This document shows positions 38,473-55,853 of a stretch of 64,000 nt of DNA, one piece after another. The stretch covers positions 124,001 through 188,000 of the forward strand of contig WGMJ01000003.1 of NCBI GenBank assembly GCA_016125135.1. Direction: 5' to 3'. Origin of the DNA: Alphaproteobacteria bacterium. Its GTDB lineage: Bacteria > Pseudomonadota > Alphaproteobacteria > Micavibrionales > Micavibrionaceae. Positions within the stretch are counted from its first letter, which is position 1, and every line of letters starts with the position of its first letter. The notes beneath the pieces are model-generated. The model saw only the letters and a program-made list of their open reading frames with translations, was not told where the DNA came from and made no database searches. Made by a program: the position numbers and the translations under genes.

Positions 38473-40728
38473 TTATTCTGCTGCGTCTATATTATCGCCA
38501 CCTTGCTTCTTTTTGCCGCGGAAAATTTGCGCACGCGCGCGAACTGCCGCATCGCGGATTGCCGCTGCTGCGCCACCATCAAGCACACGCCGTTTCGGCG
38601 GCAACACGGCGGCTTTGGCTTGTTGGGCTGGCTCCTGCGTAGTGACGGTTGGGGCCGTTGCTGTTGCTGGTTTAGCTGCAGGTGTGGCTGCCGGAGCAGG
38701 AGGTGTAGCGGCTTGTGCGGCCGGCTTCTCGAGGGCTGTCGGCGTTGTATCCGCAAGGTCAATCTTGTTGTTCAGGCCATAAACGCCAGCAAGCGCAACG
38801 GTACCGGCAACAAGCGTATCTGCACCCATATCAATACCGAGTGAATAGGCATCAACGAGTGCCCTGATTTCTTTTGGCGTCTCGACATTTACATCAGCTT
38901 TGTCTGCGCTCCATCCTTTCTTCACCAACATGTCACGCAGTTTTGTCACCTGCTTGCTGTATTTCAGCATTTGCTCGGATGGTGGCGGCAACGCCATATA
39001 ACGTGTTACACGCATAGCCTTCGCATGACCGGGATTTGCATAGAAGATCTTCACGTCACGCACTGCGTCACCAAAACACATAACAGACTGGCCCGATTTG
39101 AAACCCTTCAACGCATCATAGCTCGCGTTACCACGCAACTGCACAGATGCCTGATAGCTATCATAGTACGTGTGATGAATAGAGCCAGGCTGTGTTGTAA
39201 AGCTCGATACCTCGGTTACAAAGCTCGACCCCACCGTTTTATCGAAGAATTCTTTTGTTTGCGTCGGGTCTTCAAGCTTTCCGAATATTTTGATGTTACA
39301 GTTCGCCGTAATAGAACGCGCTTCTTCTTTTACGCGCTTTTCAAGGGCCGGCAAATCCTGTGCGGCGTAAATCAAACAGAAACCAAGCGAACGGGCCTGC
39401 GCCGCCATAACCGCCATACCTGCGGCGGTATAGTAACCCACCTCATCGAAAACAGTCATAAAAGGTGTTGCCGAGTTTGTTGGCTTATTCTCGATAACGG
39501 TAGAGCTTTCACCTTCAACCGTTGAACCCAATGTCGAACCCATCATCCCCTTGAGTGTCGCCGCAACAATTTTACCCAAGTTTGCGGTTTCGTCGGCGGA
39601 TTTCTCAAGCGCTGGAATAAGAACGATTAGAATGCGGCGGTTCAAAACAACATCCAGCATATCCACGTCTGCCGCTTGTGTGTCGAAAATATACCCGTAA
39701 TCATCACCCAACGACTGCAATGAACGCGTGAACTGCATTGTCAAGTAGCCGTGCTGCTGGCGCGCCGTTGTTGTATCAATCATCGGTTGGCCGGGGCCGG
39801 GTGGCTTTTCACGCCCTTCGTCATCGAATGCGTTATCGTTATAACCAGGCAATGTTTCAAGATAACCCTTGATACTTTCGCGGATTTTTTGCGGCAGCAC
39901 CTCATCGCGTGAGAGTTTCACAACGTTATTGAGCGCCATATAGTTACGGATCGTCCCAACGCTGAGCGGGATATCTTGATTATCCCGCTTCCACGTGAGG
40001 GCCGGCATCAGCGAGCTGACAAGAGACACCGCACGCTCTTTCCACATCGCGTTGTCCCCTTCAGCCTCCGGCATCAGCGACACAAGCATGTTGGTAAGGT
40101 ATGAAGCTGAACCGCTTGAGAACGGGTTCATAGAATTTGACGGCGCGCGTTTATCCGAGTTACCGGTCATATAGTTCAGCACAAACAAATCATCATCACG
40201 GCCAAAGCGCCGCACGAGCGAAGACAGGTTTGACCACAAATCCGTATCGGCCTTACCATCGATAAATACGAAGCCCGACGCCCAACACATGGCATTGGAA
40301 ACGGTCGAGGTCAAACCCACCGTTTTACCAGAGCCCGTTGTTCCAAGATAAAGCATGTGTGTACGGGCCTGATCGTTCGAGAACCACGCCTCTTGTCCGG
40401 TTTTTTCTTCATTGCCAAGATACATGATGCCTTGGCCCTTGCCATCTTTCCCGTTGTTATCCTTGAACTTAGAGTATTTGGGATGACAAAACACCAGCGT
40501 TCTGTCCGACTTGAAAAGAAGGAAGAAGTAGAAAGAAAGAATGGCAAATAGCACGTCTGCATACACAACGAACATATCGGTAACCAACAAGCAAATAGCC
40601 GCCGCGGCAAAAACAGAAACCGACATATCGCGTGTCGTCAGATAATCCTGCCAGTAGCGCTGCCACAGCGGCCGCACATCCCGCAGGAGCGACTTATGTT
40701 TGGTTATATAGCGGGTATCGAGTGCCAT
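38473..40728 (-). CDS. dotL: DotL/IcmO-family type IVB coupling ATPase
   Basis: VirD4/TraG-like inner membrane ATPase that receives substrates for a type IVB (Dot/Icm-type) secretion system. The 751-residue protein has two membrane segments (about 38-72), Walker A GTTGSGKT (129-136), the FVFIDGKADTDLW region, Walker B MTVFDEVGYY and IYAAQDLPALEK. The core matches IcmO/DotL or IncI TrbC. The last 110 residues are Ala/Pro-rich low-complexity sequence ending in a basic peptide, where Legionella DotL binds its adaptors. It starts three bases after the unknown membrane protein gene. No other Dot/Icm genes are in the window. Confidence 0.9.
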   Translation of the reverse strand: MALDTRYITKHKSLLRDVRPLWQRYWQDYLTTRDMSVSVFAAAAICLLVTDMFVVYADVLFAILSFYFFLLFKSDRTLVFCHPKYSKFKDNNGKDGKGQGIMYLGNEEKTGQEAWFSNDQARTHMLYLGTTGSGKTVGLTSTVSNAMCWASGFVFIDGKADTDLWSNLSSLVRRFGRDDDLFVLNYMTGNSDKRAPSNSMNPFSSGSASYLTNMLVSLMPEAEGDNAMWKERAVSLVSSLMPALTWKRDNQDIPLSVGTIRNYMALNNVVKLSRDEVLPQKIRESIKGYLETLPGYNDNAFDDEGREKPPGPGQPMIDTTTARQQHGYLTMQFTRSLQSLGDDYGYIFDTQAADVDMLDVVLNRRILIVLIPALEKSADETANLGKIVAATLKGMMGSTLGSTVEGESSTVIENKPTNSATPFMTVFDEVGYYTAAGMAVMAAQARSLGFCLIYAAQDLPALEKRVKEEARSITANCNIKIFGKLEDPTQTKEFFDKTVGSSFVTEVSSFTTQPGSIHHTYYDSYQASVQLRGNASYDALKGFKSGQSVMCFGDAVRDVKIFYANPGHAKAMRVTRYMALPPPSEQMLKYSKQVTKLRDMLVKKGWSADKADVNVETPKEIRALVDAYSLGIDMGADTLVAGTVALAGVYGLNNKIDLADTTPTALEKPAAQAATPPAPAATPAAKPATATAPTVTTQEPAQQAKAAVLPPKRRVLDGGAAAAIRDAAVRARAQIFRGKKKQGGDNIDAAE

Positions 40729-40731
40729 TTC

Positions 40732-41301
40732 TTAGTTTGCGCCCTGCTGTCTTAAAAATTCATCGGCTGATTGCGGTACACCAAAATCACCCGATGGCAT
40801 TGGCGGCGCGATTTGTGGGTTCACACGCTCTTGCGTAGGGGCGGTATTGTTCAAAATGCCCTGTGCGTGTTTTTCCAGCTTGTATTGCAGTAGCGCCATA
40901 CGACCGGGCACCATAATAAACCAGGCGATGCCCATCAATGCAATCAAGCACAGTAGGAAGACAATAAAGCCGTTGCCGCCACGTTTTTGTTTTGGCGCGG
41001 AGCCTTCACTTTCAGCCTGTGCCCGCATGTGCCCGTGGGCTGATTGTAGGGCACCAGCAATACGATTAAGGGCACGCAACGCCTGTTTGCGGGATGCAAA
41101 GCTGGCGACTTCTGTAACAGCACCGGATGCTCCTTGCGAGATAAGCGTGTGCACATCTTCACTATCAGTGCGCACACTCATTGTTGTGCCACTTTCAACG
41201 GCAAGCTGTGATACAGCGGGCGTTAACGCATCGGATAAATTAATAACAAGCGTCCCGTCAACAACACGGGCGCATGTTTTTTTAGGGCAGCAGAAAACCA
41301 T
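40732..41301 (-). CDS. Unknown single-span membrane protein between DotM and DotL
   Basis: A 189-residue protein that I cannot assign. A soluble N-terminal domain (about 1-110, starting MVFCCPKKTCARVV with three cysteines near the front) precedes a basic stretch, one membrane helix (GFIVFLLCLIALMGIAWFIMVP, near 112-133) and a Pro-rich tail with QSADEFLRQQ. It lies one base after dotM and three bases before dotL on the same strand, so it is very likely made with them. Legionella icmP and icmO have no gene between them, and R64 trbB in this position encodes a thiol isomerase, unlike this protein. A coupling-complex role is inferred from position. Confidence 0.75.
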   Translation of the reverse strand: MVFCCPKKTCARVVDGTLVINLSDALTPAVSQLAVESGTTMSVRTDSEDVHTLISQGASGAVTEVASFASRKQALRALNRIAGALQSAHGHMRAQAESEGSAPKQKRGGNGFIVFLLCLIALMGIAWFIMVPGRMALLQYKLEKHAQGILNNTAPTQERVNPQIAPPMPSGDFGVPQSADEFLRQQGAN

Positions 41302-41302
41302 C

Positions 41303-42556
41303 TTATTTGCTTCCTTTCAGCTTTTTAATACTCTTTGTCTTTTTTGCCTTGCTGTAATCAAGCGGCGGGATTGGCCGCGCAAGGTCAGATGTGAAATATT
41401 CTTCAAGCGTTTTAGTCGCATCATCCATACGCGGGCGGATGATCGGGCGTTGCGTCATTTTCTCGGCTTTGTAATGGGCCATGGCGCCCATAGCCTCGGG
41501 GTGAAATGCCTGTCGTCCCAGATTGTTGAGCGGATACCAAAGGCTGCGGTCATAACCACGAAGCCACACAAACTGTGCAGGCGCCAAAACTCCGCCCTCT
41601 TCCCGCGCAGTTAAAAGTGCGCGTATCAACGCCGTTGTTTCAAAAGCGTGCTGGTTACATTTGGCAAGTGTTTTACCTGCAATATCTTTGTTTTTGAGAA
41701 CCTTGCGTGCAGCGCGCAAAGTCTTGCCCGGAATACGCAAGCCTTTTTGGTAATCCCAGCCCGCCGCTATCTCACCCAGCATATCATCGGACTCACCGCG
41801 TTTACGTGCAGCCTTTAAACAAAAGGCCGCAAGCAAAACCTGCATATGTGGCTTCAATTTCTCGGGCCCGCGCCATGATGCGCCGAGCTGCTTTGCAAGT
41901 GCTGCCGCTGCGACATCCCTATCAAGCTTGCCGTCCGGCATCGGGATATTATTAAACGCGATCCATTCCTCAGGGCCCAATGCTTCAGCAAAGAGAGGTA
42001 ACTCGGCAGGTACAGGCGAGCCAGGCGCACGTGCAGGCTGCTTGCTCGGGTCAAACTTTACAAACGGCCTGATAACCGGAAACATTTTTGCCTGTTCCCG
42101 CATCAGCATTTTCAAATCCATGCTTTTGCGGAACAAAACTTTCGGGCCACGGAATGTACACCACACAGACATACAGAAAAGAATGGCTGCAAAAAGATAA
42201 CGTACCGGATATAGCGCCGTCATCGACATCTGGTTCATGACGTTGTCTGTCAGTTGTAATTTGTTGAGACTCGGCGTTACCAAGCGCCATTTCTCGAAAT
42301 TCAGCATCTGGTCTTTGAAGGGAACAAGGTAATCCTCATCGATAAAATGTGAGACCGCCCACATTTCGGCATAACGCACCCAACGGATTACGCTTTTTAT
42401 GTCATATTCGTAGAAAAAGTAGATAATGAAGAACAGGACGAAGAAAATAATGCCGATAAACAGCCATCCAATAAAAACGTCCGTACTCTGTCCCTTGCCG
42501 TCAGCCACAAAAACCCCGTAAAAAGCTGAAAAGAGCCCAATCAGGCCCAAAAACAT
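41303..42556 (-). CDS. dotM: DotM/IcmP-family type IVB coupling protein
   Basis: A 417-residue inner membrane protein of the Dot/Icm coupling complex, which in Legionella recognises effector signals. Three membrane segments are seen: two at the N-terminus (about 1-20 and 28-48) and one near 118. The C-terminal domain has the family block FVWLRGYDRSLWYPLNNLGRQAFHPEAMGAMAHYKAEK. It is the first gene of a three-gene set with the unknown protein and dotL, the same order as icmP-icmO. IncI TrbA is the alternative name. It is divergent from tRNA-Thr(TGT). Confidence 0.88.
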   Translation of the reverse strand: MFLGLIGLFSAFYGVFVADGKGQSTDVFIGWLFIGIIFFVLFFIIYFFYEYDIKSVIRWVRYAEMWAVSHFIDEDYLVPFKDQMLNFEKWRLVTPSLNKLQLTDNVMNQMSMTALYPVRYLFAAILFCMSVWCTFRGPKVLFRKSMDLKMLMREQAKMFPVIRPFVKFDPSKQPARAPGSPVPAELPLFAEALGPEEWIAFNNIPMPDGKLDRDVAAAALAKQLGASWRGPEKLKPHMQVLLAAFCLKAARKRGESDDMLGEIAAGWDYQKGLRIPGKTLRAARKVLKNKDIAGKTLAKCNQHAFETTALIRALLTAREEGGVLAPAQFVWLRGYDRSLWYPLNNLGRQAFHPEAMGAMAHYKAEKMTQRPIIRPRMDDATKTLEEYFTSDLARPIPPLDYSKAKKTKSIKKLKGSK

Positions 42557-48579: not shown

Positions 48580-48798
48580 CTATCTCAAAACAAGCGTTGT
48601 GCCGGAGCCTGCAATGCTCTCTAGACTAAAACGGACTCTCTCGCCCGCCTGCAGTTTTTTAGTACCGTTATAATCAAATTCCGTTCTGCCAAGAAGAAAT
48701 CTACTTATAGGACCCGCAGTTACTTTTGTACCGTCTTGATTAGCCACGCCATTAAACGTAGAAACTCCATAAGCACTCCAGCGCTGAAACATAGCCAT
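48580..48798 (-). CDS. Small hypothetical protein, 72 residues
   Basis: A 72-residue protein with a strong GAGGTGATAA-ATG start region, which supports expression. It is Gly- and Val-rich, likely a small beta barrel; the second half (KLQAGERVRFSLESIAGSG) loosely recalls the end of a cold-shock domain, but the RNA-binding motifs are absent. No neighbour on the same strand. It ends one base from the rng stop (convergent). Confidence 0.58.
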   Translation of the reverse strand: MAMFQRWSAYGVSTFNGVANQDGTKVTAGPISRFLLGRTEFDYNGTKKLQAGERVRFSLESIAGSGTTLVLR

Positions 48799-48915
48799 TT
48801 ATCACCTCGCTTGTTGGGTTCTTTTTTGTAGGCCCCATTTTAAGTTATGTCAAGAAAAAGATGCTGGACAGGATTTATGCAATTCATTAACAGTAAACAG
48901 CTTGAATAAAGCCAT

Positions 48916-48991
48916 GCCCAGGTAGCTCAGTCGGTAGAGCAAGGGATTGAAAATCCCTGTGTCGGCGGTTCGATTCCGTCCCTGGGCACCA
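48916..48991 (+). tRNA. tRNA-Phe (GAA anticodon)
   Basis: A full cloverleaf: acceptor GCCCAGG/CCTGGGC, D arm TAGCTCAGTCGGTAGAG, anticodon stem-loop AGGGA-TTGAAAA-TCCCT giving GAA, T arm CGGCGGTTCGATTCCGTC, and an encoded CCA. Confidence 0.97.
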
Positions 48992-49014
48992 TTTTAAATT
49001 TCATTCCAATTGAT

Positions 49015-49599
49015 TTATATATCCCGTGGCGGACCGTGAATACCAACGGGCCATTGCTGTAGCCAGCGCGCAAAGGTTTTTATTGTTTTTGTGTCTTCTA
49101 TAATTCTATGACCGCGCCGGTTCTCTGGTAGGGCAACGGGCGTACTTTGCAGCGAGCGTGGTAATATCGGTGCATTCGCGCCAAAATACCAGAATGTGCT
49201 TGCAGCCACAGTAAATGGGCTTTTCAAATCACGTGCAATTGCTTCCTCCTTGCCGTAATGCGCTGCGTTATGAAACGCAATTTGTAAATCATCGCCAGTA
49301 CCCTGAAAGAAATTATCGCCTTTACGGTCACGATCAGGCTTCTTGCATTGAAAGCGCGAGTCATTGAAATATTCCGAAAATGGAATTTTTTCTTCAACCT
49401 GCATCACATAAATAACATTATTCGACTCATGCGGCGCAATAGACATACCGATAATCCAGTCATGCCCGATTGTTGCGGCTTTACGTACAAGCGGCTTGCA
49501 AACGCCGAGCGTACAAACATCCCCCGTTACATTCGGCGCAAGGCCGTTATCGGAAGCGACAACATATGAAATAAGCCTGTCGGGCGTGTAGAGTTTCAT
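49015..49599 (-). CDS. Nucleotide modification associated domain 2 (Nmad2) protein
   Basis: A 194-residue protein matching the Nmad2 family: ISYVVASDNGLAPNVTGDVCTLGVCKPLVRKAA, GHDWIIGMSIAP, NVIYVMQVEEKIPFSEYFNDSRFQCKKPD, then GDNFFQ and FWYFGANAPILP. Nmad families were predicted from phage and defence-like gene clusters linked to DNA base modification; no biochemical activity is established to my knowledge. It overlaps its upstream partner gene by four bases. It lies beside a tRNA gene, a frequent site of accessory genes. No modification enzymes are adjacent. Confidence 0.72.
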   Translation of the reverse strand: MKLYTPDRLISYVVASDNGLAPNVTGDVCTLGVCKPLVRKAATIGHDWIIGMSIAPHESNNVIYVMQVEEKIPFSEYFNDSRFQCKKPDRDRKGDNFFQGTGDDLQIAFHNAAHYGKEEAIARDLKSPFTVAASTFWYFGANAPILPRSLQSTPVALPENRRGHRIIEDTKTIKTFARWLQQWPVGIHGPPRDI

Positions 49600-49937
49600 C
49601 CGCGAAGCGGCACAGGAAAGCGTAGATTAGCAAGTGTATCGAGTGTATCAGTATAAAACCCTGCAACGTCCTCGCGCGGATCTTGCTGCCAACAATTGAA
49701 CCCTGTATTAGCACGGCGAACCAGTTCATTCCGTCGCGATATACACGTATCACGGAACTTTGCGGCATCAATAGAAAGTGCTGCCCAACGGCCTTGGGCT
49801 GCAAGTTGCGCAAGTTGCGTTACTGTTTGAACGTGTGGCAAAAACTCGCCACCTTTGCGAACGCCCATATGGCGTGCGGCCATAGAGAAGCTATCTCCTA
49901 TGCCAATAAGAGCCTTAACGATTTCTGTTTTTTCCAT
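49596..49937 (-). CDS. Hypothetical partner of the Nmad2 protein
   Basis: A 113-residue soluble, helical protein of unknown family. Its stop overlaps the Nmad2 start (ATGA), so the two are translationally coupled. The sequence has a repeated-looking VTQLAQLAAQGRW region and a GFYTDTLDTLANL tail. No signal peptide or membrane segment. It is preceded by cysS on the same strand 42 bases away. The ATG has no clear ribosome site. Confidence 0.62.
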   Translation of the reverse strand: MEKTEIVKALIGIGDSFSMAARHMGVRKGGEFLPHVQTVTQLAQLAAQGRWAALSIDAAKFRDTCISRRNELVRRANTGFNCWQQDPREDVAGFYTDTLDTLANLRFPVPLRG

Positions 49938-49979: not shown

Positions 49980-51359
49980 TTAGGCGGCACGCCATTTCGC
50001 CCCTTGAGCGGTATCCTCGATAACAATACCCTTTTCTGCCAGAAAATCGCGGATTTCATCGGAACGCTTGAAGTTTTTGTCCGCACGCGCCTGTTTCCGC
50101 TCGGCCAGCAAAACCTCGATCTCGGCCTCATCCAAAGCCAGCTCTTTTTTGCCACCAGCCAGCCATGCTGCGGGGTCTTGCTGTAAAATACCAAGCAGCA
50201 AACCCGCTGCCTTTAGCTGCGCGGCCAAAGCGGGCGCTTTGGTTTTTTCCAGCTCTTTAGCAAGCGCATGAATTGCCGCCATGGCTTTGGGTACATTCAT
50301 GTCATCAAGGAGCGCTTCATAAATTTCACTATTCAGCGCAACCTTATCTTCTGCAGGGGGTGTGTCGGCAAGCAATGCATAAAATTTGGTCAGCGTTTTT
50401 TCGGCTTGTGCTAGCCCGTCCATTGTCCAGTCAAGTGGCTGACGGTAATGCGCGCCCATTAGCGCGAAGCGGATCGACTCGCCGCGCATGCCCTGTTCCA
50501 ACAAGTGATGAACCAGCGTAACATTGCCAAGAGATTTTGACATTTTCTCGCCCTCAACCGTTACAAACCCGTTATGCACCCAGCAGTTGGCAAAAGAGGC
50601 GAGGTCATATTGTTTATGCGCACAGCAACTTTGTGCAATTTCATTTTCATGATGCGGAAATTTCAAATCAGCGCCGCCACCATGGATATCAAAAGGCAGA
50701 CCCAAATGTTCTTCTGCCATTGCCGAACATTCAATATGCCAGCCCGGCCGGCCCCGACCATAAGGCGATCCCCAACCCGGCTCTTCATCTGTTGAAGGTT
50801 TCCACAAAACAAAATCGGCGGGATCGCGCTTATGTGACGCCACCTCTACACGCGCACCGGCTATCTGGTCATCACGACTGCGACCCGAAAGCCCGCCATA
50901 ATTATCAAACGATGATACGCTGAACAATACCTCACCCTCTTTAGTGGCGTAGGCATGACCGTTATCAATCAGTTTGTGAATAAGGGAAAGCATTTGCGGG
51001 ATATGCCCCGTTGCATGCGGCTGGATATCCGGTGGCAAAATATTCAATGCGCCCATATCTTCGTTATAGGCTTCTGTATATTTTTTTGTGATGACGTTTA
51101 TCGGCTGACCTGTGTCACGCGCCGCTGTAATAATTTTATCTTCGATATCGGTGATATTCGATGCATATGTCACTTTTGGATAGAGCGTGCGTAGAAGGCG
51201 CGCAAGAATATCGAACACAACCGCCATACGCGCATTGCCAATGTGAGCATAATCGTAAACTGTAGGGCCGCAGGCATAGAGCCGGACATTTGCTTTGTCG
51301 AGCGGCTCGAAAGCCTCTTTTTTACGGGTTAAGGAATTGTAAATATTTAACTGTGCCAT
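49980..51359 (-). CDS. cysS: Cysteinyl-tRNA synthetase
   Basis: A 459-residue class I synthetase. Zinc and active-site motifs are visible: LYACGPTVYDYAHIGNARM (HIGN), GWHIECSAMAEEHLGLPFDIHGGGADLKFPHHENE and KMSKSLGN. The C-terminal anticodon-binding part is present. The start at 51359 (MAQLNIYNSLTRKKEAF) matches the usual N-terminus; six further codons are open upstream. The Nmad2 pair follows on the same strand. Confidence 0.97.
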   Translation of the reverse strand: MAQLNIYNSLTRKKEAFEPLDKANVRLYACGPTVYDYAHIGNARMAVVFDILARLLRTLYPKVTYASNITDIEDKIITAARDTGQPINVITKKYTEAYNEDMGALNILPPDIQPHATGHIPQMLSLIHKLIDNGHAYATKEGEVLFSVSSFDNYGGLSGRSRDDQIAGARVEVASHKRDPADFVLWKPSTDEEPGWGSPYGRGRPGWHIECSAMAEEHLGLPFDIHGGGADLKFPHHENEIAQSCCAHKQYDLASFANCWVHNGFVTVEGEKMSKSLGNVTLVHHLLEQGMRGESIRFALMGAHYRQPLDWTMDGLAQAEKTLTKFYALLADTPPAEDKVALNSEIYEALLDDMNVPKAMAAIHALAKELEKTKAPALAAQLKAAGLLLGILQQDPAAWLAGGKKELALDEAEIEVLLAERKQARADKNFKRSDEIRDFLAEKGIVIEDTAQGAKWRAA

Positions 51360-51510: not shown

Positions 51511-53316
51511 ATGCGTAACACACACACCACCACCTCAAGCCTTCCGGCAGTTATTCAGCCTGCGGGCGAAACAACGAAAAAAGCCAGTCTAATACTCGAG
51601 CGTAAAGCAAAGGGGCAGGGGCGCATCTTGTGGCGGCTGTTTTTCCTGCTAACAACCGTTCAGATTGTTGCAAATTATTTTTTACTTGAAGCGATACTTT
51701 ACAGTCAGGGCATCGAGATTGTTAGAAATTCATTCTCCTATTATTCGCTCTGTGCACTCTTCGCAATTGGTTCAACAGCCATTGTAAACTATTTCGTGAA
51801 GCTGTGGCTTGTTGACCCTCTACAACTTATCAAGAAAAACTTTGCTGAAGCCTCCCTGAACCCTGAGACACACGCCTTCCCCCTTGTTGCTGTGAGTGGT
51901 ACAGATGAAATCGCGCAGACAGTTTCAGCAGCACAAGCCATGCTGAAACGCCATGCTGAAAACCTGATGCGGGTGAAAGCTTCTGCCGAAGAAGAGATCC
52001 AGAAGATTTCTCACTATGACCCACTTACCAGCCTGCCAAACCGCTTGCTGTTCGTACAAAAAATGCACGAGATGATTGAAGCGGGTCATAACGTAGATGG
52101 TACGCAGCGCCGTTTTGCACTTGTTGCGGTTGATCTTGATAACTTCCAGGACATCAACGATAGCGTAGGCCACCATATTGGTGATATTGTTTTGAAGATT
52201 GTTGCGAAACGTCTGAAAACGTCTCTCCCCGCCTCCGCTTTGATTGCGCGCACAGGTGAGGATGAATTCCTTGTATTCTTGCCTTTGAAAGATGGTGCTT
52301 ATACCGCGCGTGATGTGGGTGACAAGGTTCGTCACCTTATCAGGCACGAGCCTGCCAAGATTTACGGTGAAAACTTCCCGCTACGTGCCTCTATTGGTAT
52401 TTCAAAATTCCCTGATGATGGTTTAAGCCCTGAGCAGGTTTTGAAAAACGCATCACTGGCCCTGAACCGCGCCAAGCAGGATGGCCGCGATACAGTGCGT
52501 GAATATCTGGAAGATTTCGACAAAGCGCTTGCGCAGCGTTTACAAATTTTGCGCGATCTGCGCGAAGCGCTTGAAAACAATAAGCTGATGCTGCGCTTCC
52601 AACCACAGATAAATCTGAATACAGGTAAAATATACGGCGCTGAAGCATTGCTGGCGTGGTTCCATACCGATGCCAAAACAGGCGAGAAGAAAATGATCCC
52701 CCCTGATACATTTATTCCACTAGCAGAGCAGTCTGGCTTGATTGTACCATTGGGTGAATGGGTACTGCGCAAAGCTTGTGAAACCGCCAAGGAATGGGAG
52801 AAACAAGGGCTTGACTGGCGCGTGGCCGTAAATGTTTCGGGTGTTCAGTTCCACCAGAGTGACCTTGTCGCGCTTACACGGGAAGTGCTGGCTGAAACAG
52901 GCCTTGCACCGCATAAACTAGAGCTTGAGGTTACAGAAAGCGCTTTCATGAGTGATATTGATGTTGCCATTGAAACGCTCAAGTCACTCAAATCACTGGG
53001 CGTTGATCTTGCAATTGATGATTTCGGGACGGGCTATTCATCCCTCTCTTACCTGCGCCGCTTCCCGGTTGACCGTTTAAAGATCGACAAAACATTTATT
53101 CTGGACGCACTCAAGGATGACGACGATGCCGTTATCGCCAAAACAATTATTGCACTAGGCCACTCGCTCGGCGTTCTTGTGCTGGCGGAAGGCGTTGAAA
53201 CAAAAGAGCATGAGACATTCCTGAAAGAACAAGGCTGCGATGAAGCGCAGGGCTATTACTATGCGCGCCCGATGCTGCTGGAAGATCTGCTGCAATTCGC
53301 GGCAGAGAAAATTTAA
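51511..53316 (+). CDS. GGDEF-EAL protein, probable c-di-GMP phosphodiesterase
   Basis: A 601-residue inner membrane protein with two membrane helices (about 41-61 and 76-96), a HAMP-like linker, a GGDEF domain (about 170-330) and an EAL domain (about 345-600). The GGDEF signature is GEDEF (249-253) and no RxxD inhibitory site precedes it, so cyclase activity is doubtful. The EAL motif (AEALLAW, 378-380) and DDFGTGYSSLSYLRRFPVDRLKIDKTFI are intact, suggesting it degrades c-di-GMP. Its end overlaps the convergent FAD gene by four bases. Confidence 0.9.
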   Translation: MRNTHTTTSSLPAVIQPAGETTKKASLILERKAKGQGRILWRLFFLLTTVQIVANYFLLEAILYSQGIEIVRNSFSYYSLCALFAIGSTAIVNYFVKLWLVDPLQLIKKNFAEASLNPETHAFPLVAVSGTDEIAQTVSAAQAMLKRHAENLMRVKASAEEEIQKISHYDPLTSLPNRLLFVQKMHEMIEAGHNVDGTQRRFALVAVDLDNFQDINDSVGHHIGDIVLKIVAKRLKTSLPASALIARTGEDEFLVFLPLKDGAYTARDVGDKVRHLIRHEPAKIYGENFPLRASIGISKFPDDGLSPEQVLKNASLALNRAKQDGRDTVREYLEDFDKALAQRLQILRDLREALENNKLMLRFQPQINLNTGKIYGAEALLAWFHTDAKTGEKKMIPPDTFIPLAEQSGLIVPLGEWVLRKACETAKEWEKQGLDWRVAVNVSGVQFHQSDLVALTREVLAETGLAPHKLELEVTESAFMSDIDVAIETLKSLKSLGVDLAIDDFGTGYSSLSYLRRFPVDRLKIDKTFILDALKDDDDAVIAKTIIALGHSLGVLVLAEGVETKEHETFLKEQGCDEAQGYYYARPMLLEDLLQFAAEKI

Positions 53317-55082
53317 AAATCTATTTTTTTCTCGTACCAGTGAAGGCGATCATAATCCGCCTTGCGTCTTGCGTGCGAGGCTTTGGCGGACAGATCATAA
53401 ACAAGAGTTGCAACAGACCGTCTGATAAGCGCATTATTGCGCGGAAAATTAATGGCGGCTGGCCCCACGAAAGATCTATATTCGTTCGTCTGCCCCATAA
53501 TAACCGCACCAGCCCGTAGCGTCCCGCATGTCCAGATTGTAGCCCCGCCGTGCAAACCATCGCATCTTGCGCGCCCTTCAAAGTCAACATCAAGCCCGAA
53601 CCCGCTGTTATGTGGCCGCACCGCATTCATTTCCAACATATCAGACAACAATGGCGATGCATCGGTAACAAGCGAGAAATCAGGGCCAATAGAAGAAACG
53701 ATCTTGTGAACCCTTAGTACATGTGTTTCCTTGGGTTTGTCGGTTGGCGTATAATAAACCAGATACCCCGGGACTATATAAGGAAAGCCGTCCCTGTCAC
53801 GTGTCCAGTCGCGTCTGATCTCGGTAATACGGCCTGCAACGAAGTCGGTTTTGAATCTGCTGCGGCTTTTCCTGTTGCGTGCGATAATATCGTTTGCTGC
53901 ACCAACCCGCATGGAAGTAATAACAGAGTTAAATCTTTTATAGAGCTGGAAGAACCTTTCATACCCTACGCGCTCCATAATTTGTGGTGTATGGTGTTCC
54001 CATTGCGACAATACCTCCTCAGGATACAGCGTGCGGCTCAAAGCGGCTTTAAGAAACTGCGATTTAGCCCCTTCCGTGAAGCAGCCACGCTTATGGTTAA
54101 AGCGATAGCCTGTGAGCTGCTTGAACTCTTGAATGGCTTCACGCACCATAGCACGTTCTTCATGCGCACGACGCCTTGAGCCCTCCGCGAAGCGGGATGG
54201 ATTACGCTGGAGAAAGCGGGGCGCAGGTAAATCAATATCTGTGCGCACCCCTCGTCCTTTCGGGTATTGGAAATGCTGCTGAGAAGAGTTTGAAAGCCTG
54301 ATAATTGCCCCCTTATAGCCACGCTGCCGCCATTCATCTTCCGTATCTTCTGCACTTAATCCGTTGCCAAGTATCAACACTGTATTGTTTTTTTCCGGTA
54401 TATCAATATTGGATGCGTCATACGTAGCTGACGGAAAATAGTCATGCTCGAGCGCAGGATTGTCTATGAAGAACTGTTTAATCACGGCGACTTCGCGGTT
54501 ATGGCCCGTATGCCCCATTGCAAGAATGATATGATGGGCCTCTATTTTGATAAAATCTTCATCACCGTCGCCAGTTTTAATTGTGATCTCATGACAATTA
54601 TCACAGTCCTTTTTATTTCTGGCCTTAATGGCCTCGCCTTTAATCGCACGGAATTTTATATTAGAAGAAGAAATGGATTGCAGATATTGCAGACGTTCTT
54701 GCAAAAAATCTGTAACTTCATGGCGAACAACCGCAGAATGCAATATCCTGTTTGCGCGTGAGCGGCCCGTATCCCGATCAATAAAATTGTCCCGTAGTGC
54801 AACTCCAGCAAAGGACACATTCATACGCTCGAGAGATATGTTTGTTTTGCGGCCCGCAGATGCTTGTTTGCCATAAGCCAAGCCGCCATTAATTGTAGGA
54901 CTGCCCGTGCCATCGACAGGTAGTTCATTTTTGTCACAGAGGATAATCTCGACCGGCCCCACGCCGTCACTATAACGTTCATGCGCATGCTGAATAATGG
55001 CTTCAAGCAAATGATTGGCCCAAAGCCCGCCAAAGGCTCCGCCGCCAACAATGACAATGCGTTGGACATTATCGTCCGCCAT
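53313..55082 (-). CDS. FAD/NAD(P)-binding protein
   Basis: A 589-residue probable oxidoreductase or acyl/peptide monooxygenase-like flavoprotein of the FAD_NAD(P)-binding (PF13454) type. The dinucleotide fold is at the start: IVIVGGGAFGGLWANHLL, and a second segment is at TVLILGNGLSAEDTEDEW. The C-terminal WTCGTLRAGAVIMGQTNEYRSFVGPAAINFPRNN is typical of the group. The reaction is not predictable. The ATG has an AGAGGG site. Nothing nearby suggests a pathway. Confidence 0.8.
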   Translation of the reverse strand: MADDNVQRIVIVGGGAFGGLWANHLLEAIIQHAHERYSDGVGPVEIILCDKNELPVDGTGSPTINGGLAYGKQASAGRKTNISLERMNVSFAGVALRDNFIDRDTGRSRANRILHSAVVRHEVTDFLQERLQYLQSISSSNIKFRAIKGEAIKARNKKDCDNCHEITIKTGDGDEDFIKIEAHHIILAMGHTGHNREVAVIKQFFIDNPALEHDYFPSATYDASNIDIPEKNNTVLILGNGLSAEDTEDEWRQRGYKGAIIRLSNSSQQHFQYPKGRGVRTDIDLPAPRFLQRNPSRFAEGSRRRAHEERAMVREAIQEFKQLTGYRFNHKRGCFTEGAKSQFLKAALSRTLYPEEVLSQWEHHTPQIMERVGYERFFQLYKRFNSVITSMRVGAANDIIARNRKSRSRFKTDFVAGRITEIRRDWTRDRDGFPYIVPGYLVYYTPTDKPKETHVLRVHKIVSSIGPDFSLVTDASPLLSDMLEMNAVRPHNSGFGLDVDFEGRARCDGLHGGATIWTCGTLRAGAVIMGQTNEYRSFVGPAAINFPRNNALIRRSVATLVYDLSAKASHARRKADYDRLHWYEKKIDF

Positions 55083-55153: not shown

Positions 55154-55774
55154 TTAAGCGATCGGCACGTCAACACGCACTGGAAGATCGGCCGCAACAG
55201 GCTCGTCTTCCAGCATTTCGATCATCCCCGTGGGGTGAACGGCGAAATTGGCAATAAAGAGCGCGTTTGAGTAAAAAACAATTGCGTCACAAAGCCAGTG
55301 GTTTTGCTCATTCTTGCCCTCGAATGTGGCGGGGCGAATCGTGCTTTCAATCACGGTTTTCGTTGCTGCATCAATACCTTGCGGCATGTTCGGATCATCC
55401 AGATTCTCGGAGACAAGGAACGGACCCTCTTCCCCGCGGACGAAGAAGCAGAAGAAGCGCAGATAATCGAGCACATTTTCATCGGTAATCTTTACGGGCG
55501 CCTTGGCATTCACCTCGTGAATAGGCGGGGACGTACCGTTCAGACGGTACAGGTTACCGCGATCGGTCAGATAATAGATTTTAAGCTTCCGGTTGGGCCA
55601 GTTACTATCCTGCACACGGATAAGCGCCACCTGCTCGTAAAACGACAATAAACGCCATGAAACCTGCGTTGTTTGCGCGGATGTCTGGTATTTACCATCA
55701 ATCGGGTTTACTTGGGCTAAAAATCCGTCTAATTCGGCACCGGTGACGGGATTCCAGTTATTATCTTCATACAT
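55154..55774 (-). CDS. Hypothetical protein
   Basis: A 206-residue soluble protein seemingly of a conserved but uncharacterised type: NPVTGAELDGFLAQVNPIDGKYQT, then LTDRGNLYRLNGTSPPIHEVNAKAP and FFCFFVRGEEGPFLVSE. The start at 55774 (MYEDNNWNP) is preferred, with an AAGG site nine bases upstream; an in-frame ATG at 55792 is the alternative. It is divergent from the rpmH promoter. Function unknown. Confidence 0.62.
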   Translation of the reverse strand: MYEDNNWNPVTGAELDGFLAQVNPIDGKYQTSAQTTQVSWRLLSFYEQVALIRVQDSNWPNRKLKIYYLTDRGNLYRLNGTSPPIHEVNAKAPVKITDENVLDYLRFFCFFVRGEEGPFLVSENLDDPNMPQGIDAATKTVIESTIRPATFEGKNEQNHWLCDAIVFYSNALFIANFAVHPTGMIEMLEDEPVAADLPVRVDVPIA

Positions 55775-55853
55775 TCTTGAAAACCTTGGCAAAAATCGTC
55801 GTTTTGACCCTTATTTGTACCTTATCGGGATTCTTCCGTAAAGACGTTTTTTG

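Follow-up and report, generated by a model that had tools for sequence, protein, structure and literature searches.

A free-standing Nmad2 gene beside tRNA-Phe in an alphaproteobacterial genome: a candidate PUA-like reader without a recurrent partner in the genomes sampled

EVE domains bind modified bases and occur in prokaryotic gene neighbourhoods of both a housekeeping and a defence type, as described in excerpts that make no mention of Nmad proteins (PMC7641849). A nucleotide modification associated domain (NMAD), its number unstated in the excerpts concerned, is named by DefensePredictor among the predicted systems and in the legend to the validated systems (PMC13092281), so that, by these passages, a link between the family and defence is already in print. 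The literature searched yielded no established account of Nmad2 chemistry, and no publication on a TIR-Nmad2 pair or on a PUA-like Nmad2 was recognised in it; older founding papers of the Nmad families may describe TIR-Nmad2 neighbourhoods. The means by which TIR systems of bacteria perceive infection are largely unsettled. One such system is reported, in an excerpted account, to sense viral capsids (PMC11312562), a trigger other than the one proposed below for Nmad2, and a reader fixed beside a ThsB-type TIR would offer another testable answer.

The Nmad2 gene analysed here lies in a window of 64,000 nt, by which we mean the whole stretch of DNA under study, and is the only copy in its genome (2.23 Mb, 23 contigs). 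It is read on the minus strand (49015..49599) and encodes a protein of 194 aa which matches the Pfam Nmad2 profile (PF18753) over residues 9-193 with E 3.1e-42 and 144.8 bits (cut-off 26.1), covering profile positions 4-195 of 200. The Nmad2 pattern proposed in the initial annotation is thereby confirmed, and no other Pfam family matches the protein at E <= 1. As a single query, it had no match in viral contigs, and none was found for Nmad2 in phage records. Searches of PDB sequences with the protein alone and with a profile returned only unrelated molecules, at E 0.99 and E 0.053. The gene is absent from the 37 other relatives searched; one weak match (G011, 23.7 bits, below the cut-off) was judged to be chance, its translated stretch containing a stop and showing no Nmad2 core.

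Directly upstream on the same strand lies an ORF of 113 aa (49596..49937) without an assigned family. Its stop codon (TGA) and the start codon of the Nmad2 ORF (ATG) fall in a shared stretch of 4 nt (ATGA, 49596..49599), so that translation of the two could be coupled. The cysteinyl-tRNA synthetase gene cysS, recognised by Pfam (49980..51359, minus strand), follows 42 nt further upstream, and its co-transcription with the pair is possible. On the other side, 23 nt separate the Nmad2 stop from a convergent tRNA-Phe (gaa) gene on the plus strand (48916..48991), beyond which lies an ORF of 72 aa. The overlap and the position beside tRNA-Phe, both pointed out initially, hold with their coordinates. 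Both members of the pair look coding, since their codon-usage log-odds per codon (0.201 for the 113-aa ORF, 0.143 for Nmad2) exceed the maximum of 0.109 reached by 570 wrong-frame windows of 113 codons. The 72-aa ORF, located between RNase E/G and tRNA-Phe (48580-48798), has a borderline coding score of 0.042 and matches no family over the cut-off. A 16-nt near-repeat (14/16) flanks tRNA-Phe at 48831-48846 and 48985-49000, the second copy covering the 3' end of the tRNA; no integrase was seen near it.

The Pfam-assigned neighbours of the pair are IF-1, Maf, RNase E/G, CysS, UPF0262 and a GGDEF-EAL protein, and two further ORFs (53313-55082 and 55154-55792) gave no Pfam match at E 1e-5. The former encodes 589 aa and appears NAD(P)/FAD-binding-like by eye. 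Inspection by eye of the ORFs listed for the 40-60 kb part of the window (minimum length 50, 100 or 110 aa; 13 ORFs put to Pfam) revealed no restriction gene, no methyltransferase and no phage gene. This agrees with the initial statement that genes of these kinds or of base modification are not adjacent. No mobile-element gene was seen adjoining the pair. GC content around the pair (0.455-0.50) is similar to that of the flanks, and promoter and terminator scans gave no more signal than shuffled sequences. At 38473-42556, a DotM gene (PF23127, E 5e-48) and a coupling-protein-like ATPase gene look like part of a Dot/Icm-type secretion locus.

In four relatives (L058-L060, L070), cysS has other neighbours than in the window. 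By eye, it lies there between GTP-cyclohydrolase-like and pilin-like genes, neither of which was seen beside the window cysS. Furthermore, none of 19 cysS loci from relatives carries a tRNA gene within the flanks covered (up to ~1.5 kb). With differing cysS neighbours and no tRNA at 19/19 loci, the region is rearranged and does not offer a readable empty or insertion site.

The gene neighbourhoods of Nmad2 were surveyed in order, class and phylum samples, which overlap and are not all genomes. In the class sample, 13 of 385 genomes have an Nmad2 match. In six of these (L003-L008), a ThsB_TIR gene (Pfam E 1.7e-24 to 4.1e-17) immediately precedes Nmad2 in the same orientation and stops at most ~20 nt from the Nmad2 start or overlaps it. 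Four lack such a partner (the window, L010, L011 and L012), in L009 Pfam recognises no family in the upstream gene, and the remaining two genomes (G310, G104), represented by fragments L013-L015, were left out of the partner count. In the order sample, Nmad2 is present in 3/142 genomes, at three different tree positions: the window gene, one gene with a TIR partner (L056, in genome G455 of the same family as the window) and one without (L055). The phylum sample adds further arrangements, Nmad2 occurring in 6/398 genomes including that of the window; three of the five others were inspected (all but G527 and G614) and show TIR (L084), Nmad3 (L085) and neither (L083).

Nmad2 also matches 18 plasmid records, and neighbours were inspected in 15. 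A TIR annotated directly upstream is found in eight (L017, L018, L019, L021, L022, L023, L030 and L033), and Pfam identifies an upstream TIR in L035. The directly upstream gene belongs to no recognised family in L020, L029 and L031 (annotated as hypothetical in L020 and L029; Pfam for L020 and L031), and no TIR stands beside Nmad2 in the annotation of L016, L032 and L034. In L016, L032 and the phylum-sample locus L083, Nmad2 lies beside YncE-like and sigma/anti-sigma genes, accompanied in L016 and L032 by a molybdopterin oxidoreductase gene. The annotated ORF of L032 joins a YncE-like N-terminus to an Nmad2 C-terminus, perhaps through a deletion. A virus-like contig (L077:3663-5666) carries an Nmad2 gene after an N6_N4 DNA methylase gene.

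Among named genomes, 18 Nmad2 loci were found and the neighbours of 15 inspected (all but L042, L044 and L053). Five of these loci are solo (L036-L040), L036-L038 sharing with L010-L012 both the Nmad2 ORF and the length of the contig. In two Bacteroidota (L051:4501-7611 and L052:431-3514), TIR-Nmad2 lies near a SIR2-STALD (ThsA-like) gene, giving a Thoeris-like locus with Nmad2. An Nmad3 gene recognised by Pfam directly follows Nmad2, mostly overlapping it, in L041, L043, L045, L046, L048 and L085; this arrangement occurs in Nitrospira, Chlorobiaceae and Phycisphaerales and also in one genome of the window's phylum (L085). By eye, L047 and L050 have Nmad2 followed by an Nmad3-like ORF, and neither TIR nor Nmad3 was seen in L049. 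Some TIR-Nmad2 loci carry the ThsA-like SIR2-STALD gene and others MazG_C and UDG. In the TIR clades, Nmad2 would be the sensor and the ThsB-type TIR the output arm, a wiring which gene order makes likely. The initial suggestion of a nucleotide-linked defence or regulatory module holds in spirit for the family, which is tied to such genes through ThsB-type TIR and Nmad3 in other clades; a defence module is not supported at the window locus.

In a tree of 37 Nmad2 rows, the window gene, L010, L011, L012, L039 and L040 make up one side of a branch whose support is 100/99 and whose stem measures 1.4 changes per column. Left aside in building the tree were loci that are fragmentary (L013-L015), partial (L053) or broken (L047), those that duplicate others (L036-L038) or resemble them (L042, L044 and L050), the chance match L002, L032 with its odd N-terminus, L034 and the later finds L083-L088. 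The five nearest Nmad2 relatives found for the window protein are 58, 52, 47, 45 and 42% identical to it, and six positions (P6, S16, H57, W137, R161 and R192) are fixed in 6/6 solo rows and present in at most 3 of the 31 others, the P6 column being mostly gap outside the solo rows. By-eye reading places L010 downstream of a PfkB-like kinase gene, L011/L037 beside a small ORF whose product looks secreted and a gene for an FKBP-type protein, L012/L038 beside RNA polymerase beta' and a cysteine-synthase-like gene, L039 beside a PhoH-like ATPase and L040 beside FtsY-like and methyltransferase-like genes. The genomes concerned are Proteobacteria, one of them listed as Alphaproteobacteria, and include metagenome-assembled genomes. 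This well-supported solo clade is made up of proteobacterial Nmad2 genes that stand free, each in a neighbourhood unrelated to the others, with no recurrent partner in the samples, which are the basis of this absence and are not all genomes. Elsewhere in the tree, the Nmad3-paired genes form one clade (100/98), the TIR-paired rows need 2 changes and eight rows with other neighbours need 3.

ThsB_TIR has no match in the four solo-clade genomes tested (the window genome, G217, G311 and G120) and none in G501; G455 has two. The TIR-Nmad2 module in G455 (L056), a genome of the same family, and the absence of the window gene from the 37 other relatives would be expected if the window Nmad2 were what is left, in decay, of a TIR-Nmad2 module gained by horizontal transfer. 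This is very improbable, as the window gene groups with the solo genes at 100/99 and apart from L056, is intact, scores as coding and keeps all nine residues that are invariant across the tree rows.

For the 113-aa ORF, searches at E <= 1 gave no match in Pfam, PHROGs, PADLOC or the sequences of the PDB, only an irrelevant one in NCBIfam (E 0.15) and no credible relative in plasmids, phages or viral contigs. Its sole occurrence, both in the order sample (1/142 genomes, E <= 0.01) and in the phylum sample (1/398 genomes, E <= 0.001), is that in the window genome. The class sample (385 genomes) gave four further partial matches at E 0.001-0.01 and 28-40% identity, all in genomes outside the 13 that bear Nmad2. 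These marginal matches were rejected; at the two loci inspected (L026 and L028, of L025 to L028), no homologous gene was seen. A single-sequence structure model is all-helical and of low confidence (pLDDT 57), too weak for a structure search.

An upstream gene of this type is also absent beside 5/5 other solo-clade Nmad2 genes. The initial annotation had taken the two ORFs for a minimal two-gene cassette and proposed looking for the 113-aa protein beside other Nmad2 genes. Its partner occurs in no other sampled genome, and the pair does not recur in the independent lineages sampled; with the five nearest Nmad2 relatives lacking the 113-aa gene, the cassette fails on the very point by which it was to be refuted. 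As the gene is not conserved and the upstream neighbours of the relatives are unrelated, both 'minimal two-gene cassette' and 'defence module' are unsupported at this locus.

A version of this idea may nevertheless be put for the window lineage by itself. The pair would then be a cassette specific to this lineage, of the defence or toxin-antitoxin-like kind, with a helical, fast-evolving 113-aa effector in place of the TIR and with Nmad2 as sensor or antitoxin. In the TIR clades, the position immediately ahead of Nmad2 in the same orientation belongs to the TIR gene, which ends within a few nt of the Nmad2 start or overlaps it, and the 4-nt overlap in the window copies this layout; the 113-aa ORF looks coding, and Nmad2 has a sparse, patchy distribution within the order (3/142, at three tree positions), as mobile defence genes have. 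We nonetheless regard such a cassette as quite unlikely, given five closest Nmad2 relatives (58-42%) without such a gene upstream, a 113-aa ORF with neither credible relatives nor a match to TIR or any other family, and flanks which are mostly housekeeping, with no mobile-element gene seen beside the pair. The 113-aa gene would rather be a lineage-specific neighbour, placed ahead of Nmad2 by chance gene order or recruited as a recent local partner.

Conservation within Nmad2 extends across the clades. In window numbering, D17, P22, C34, R39, G51, P88, H114, Y138 and G140 are invariant in 37/37 rows, and Y12, N23, C29, L31, K35, D47, D95 and N96 are kept in 36/37. An AlphaFold2 monomer model built from 17 aligned sequences reached pLDDT 91.8 and pTM 0.89. 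Its best Foldseek match in the PDB had a non-significant E of 0.097, and none of the 114 matches reached E <= 0.001; YTH and ASCH domains fill ranks 1-10, rank 13 is McrB-N with m5C DNA, and ranks 11, 12 and 14 are unrelated chains (a kinase, a chemoreceptor unit and sulfite reductase). VIA-align, which re-ranks the Foldseek list, gave a best match with Z 7.9 over 135 residues at 3.6 A and 9% identity; none of 372 chains attained Z >= 8, and values below 8, the middling range of the tool, may mean only a common arrangement. The 50 rows shown comprise 43 YTH structures (two titled Mmi1 only), three ASCH, one EVE-HNH (VcaM4I) and three without a family name. Identity to the YTH, ASCH and EVE structures is 4-14%, and a search of BFVD gave no match at E <= 0.001. 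Short of proof, the uniform top of the VIA-align list argues for a PUA-like fold of Nmad2, and the predicted likeness to YTH, ASCH and EVE domains suggests a candidate reader of modified bases.

Nmad2 would be pictured as a PUA-superfamily (YTH/ASCH/EVE-like) domain that binds a modified or unusual nucleoside, either within nucleic acid or free. The predicted pocket residues Y12, D17, N23, C34, K35, R39, D95, N96, H114 and Y138 recur in almost every row, whatever the clade. With its invariant D, R and H residues, the protein could equally be an enzyme or a reader. Amidohydrolase activity is known for ASCH-type domains. The solo Nmad2 might act on modified nucleosides, as an ASCH-like amidohydrolase or ribonuclease in nucleotide salvage or repair. 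The structure matches include ASCH domains, which belong to this superfamily, and ZmASCH is reported to have a ribonuclease activity specific for single-stranded RNA (PMC5615036). D17, K35, R39, D95, N96 and H114 are each present in all or all but one of the 37 rows, and the family partners MazG_C and UDG handle nucleotides or bases. On this evidence, an enzymatic role is conceivable, though on the unlikely side.

The reading we prefer, at about even confidence, is that the window Nmad2 is a free-standing (orphan) PUA-like reader with a cellular role rather than an autonomous defence module. The solo clade would have retained the conserved core, its TIR output having been lost or never possessed; since the core is kept without that output, a cellular function, whether as reader or as nucleoside hydrolase, is the more likely one for this clade, which would then match the housekeeping kind of EVE neighbourhood. 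Nmad2 is no substitute for EVE in the window genome, as a separate canonical EVE gene is present there (G000:C4:204201-204593). An EVE match was also found in G501 and none in G217, G311, G120 or G455, so that a replacement of EVE by Nmad2 in the other solo genomes (G217, G311, G120) is conceivable. A wider proposal would make Nmad2 a PUA-superfamily reader of modified nucleic acid and the infection sensor of a Thoeris-like system. In this role it would hold the neighbouring ThsB-type TIR until it meets modified phage nucleic acid, and would then let the TIR go or switch it on. The solo clade would be the same reader without TIR, put to cellular use. Taken as a whole, this proposal is tentative and rather unlikely.

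The fold prediction proposes a testable role for Nmad2, either as a reader of modified bases or as a nucleoside enzyme. The TIR-partnered and partnerless clades furthermore provide a natural control, in which the solo protein would show the ligand and the TIR pair what the ligand triggers. As an example, the window locus is a modest one.

Compared with known systems, the window protein shares with Pfam Nmad2 (PF18753) a nearly full-length profile match and the conserved core residues, but its clade is a separate lineage with six solo-fixed positions and no recurrent neighbour. To the EVE, YTH and ASCH domains of the PUA superfamily, which include modified-base readers such as YTHDC1, McrB-N and VcaM4I, it shows a predicted resemblance in fold (Z up to 7.9, Foldseek E not significant), whereas identity is low, as given above, and a profile-level match to EVE or its kin is lacking, Nmad2 being the sole Pfam match. 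The TIR-Nmad2 modules possess a homologous Nmad2 (28-36% identical) and likewise a small gene that abuts or overlaps the Nmad2 start; in the window, however, this upstream gene matches no family, and ThsB_TIR has no match anywhere in the genome. Finally, the Nmad2-Nmad3 pairs of Nitrospira, Chlorobiaceae and Phycisphaerales contain a homologous Nmad2 (36-39% identical) and differ in what follows it: Nmad3 lies directly downstream there, whereas in the window this place is taken by tRNA-Phe.
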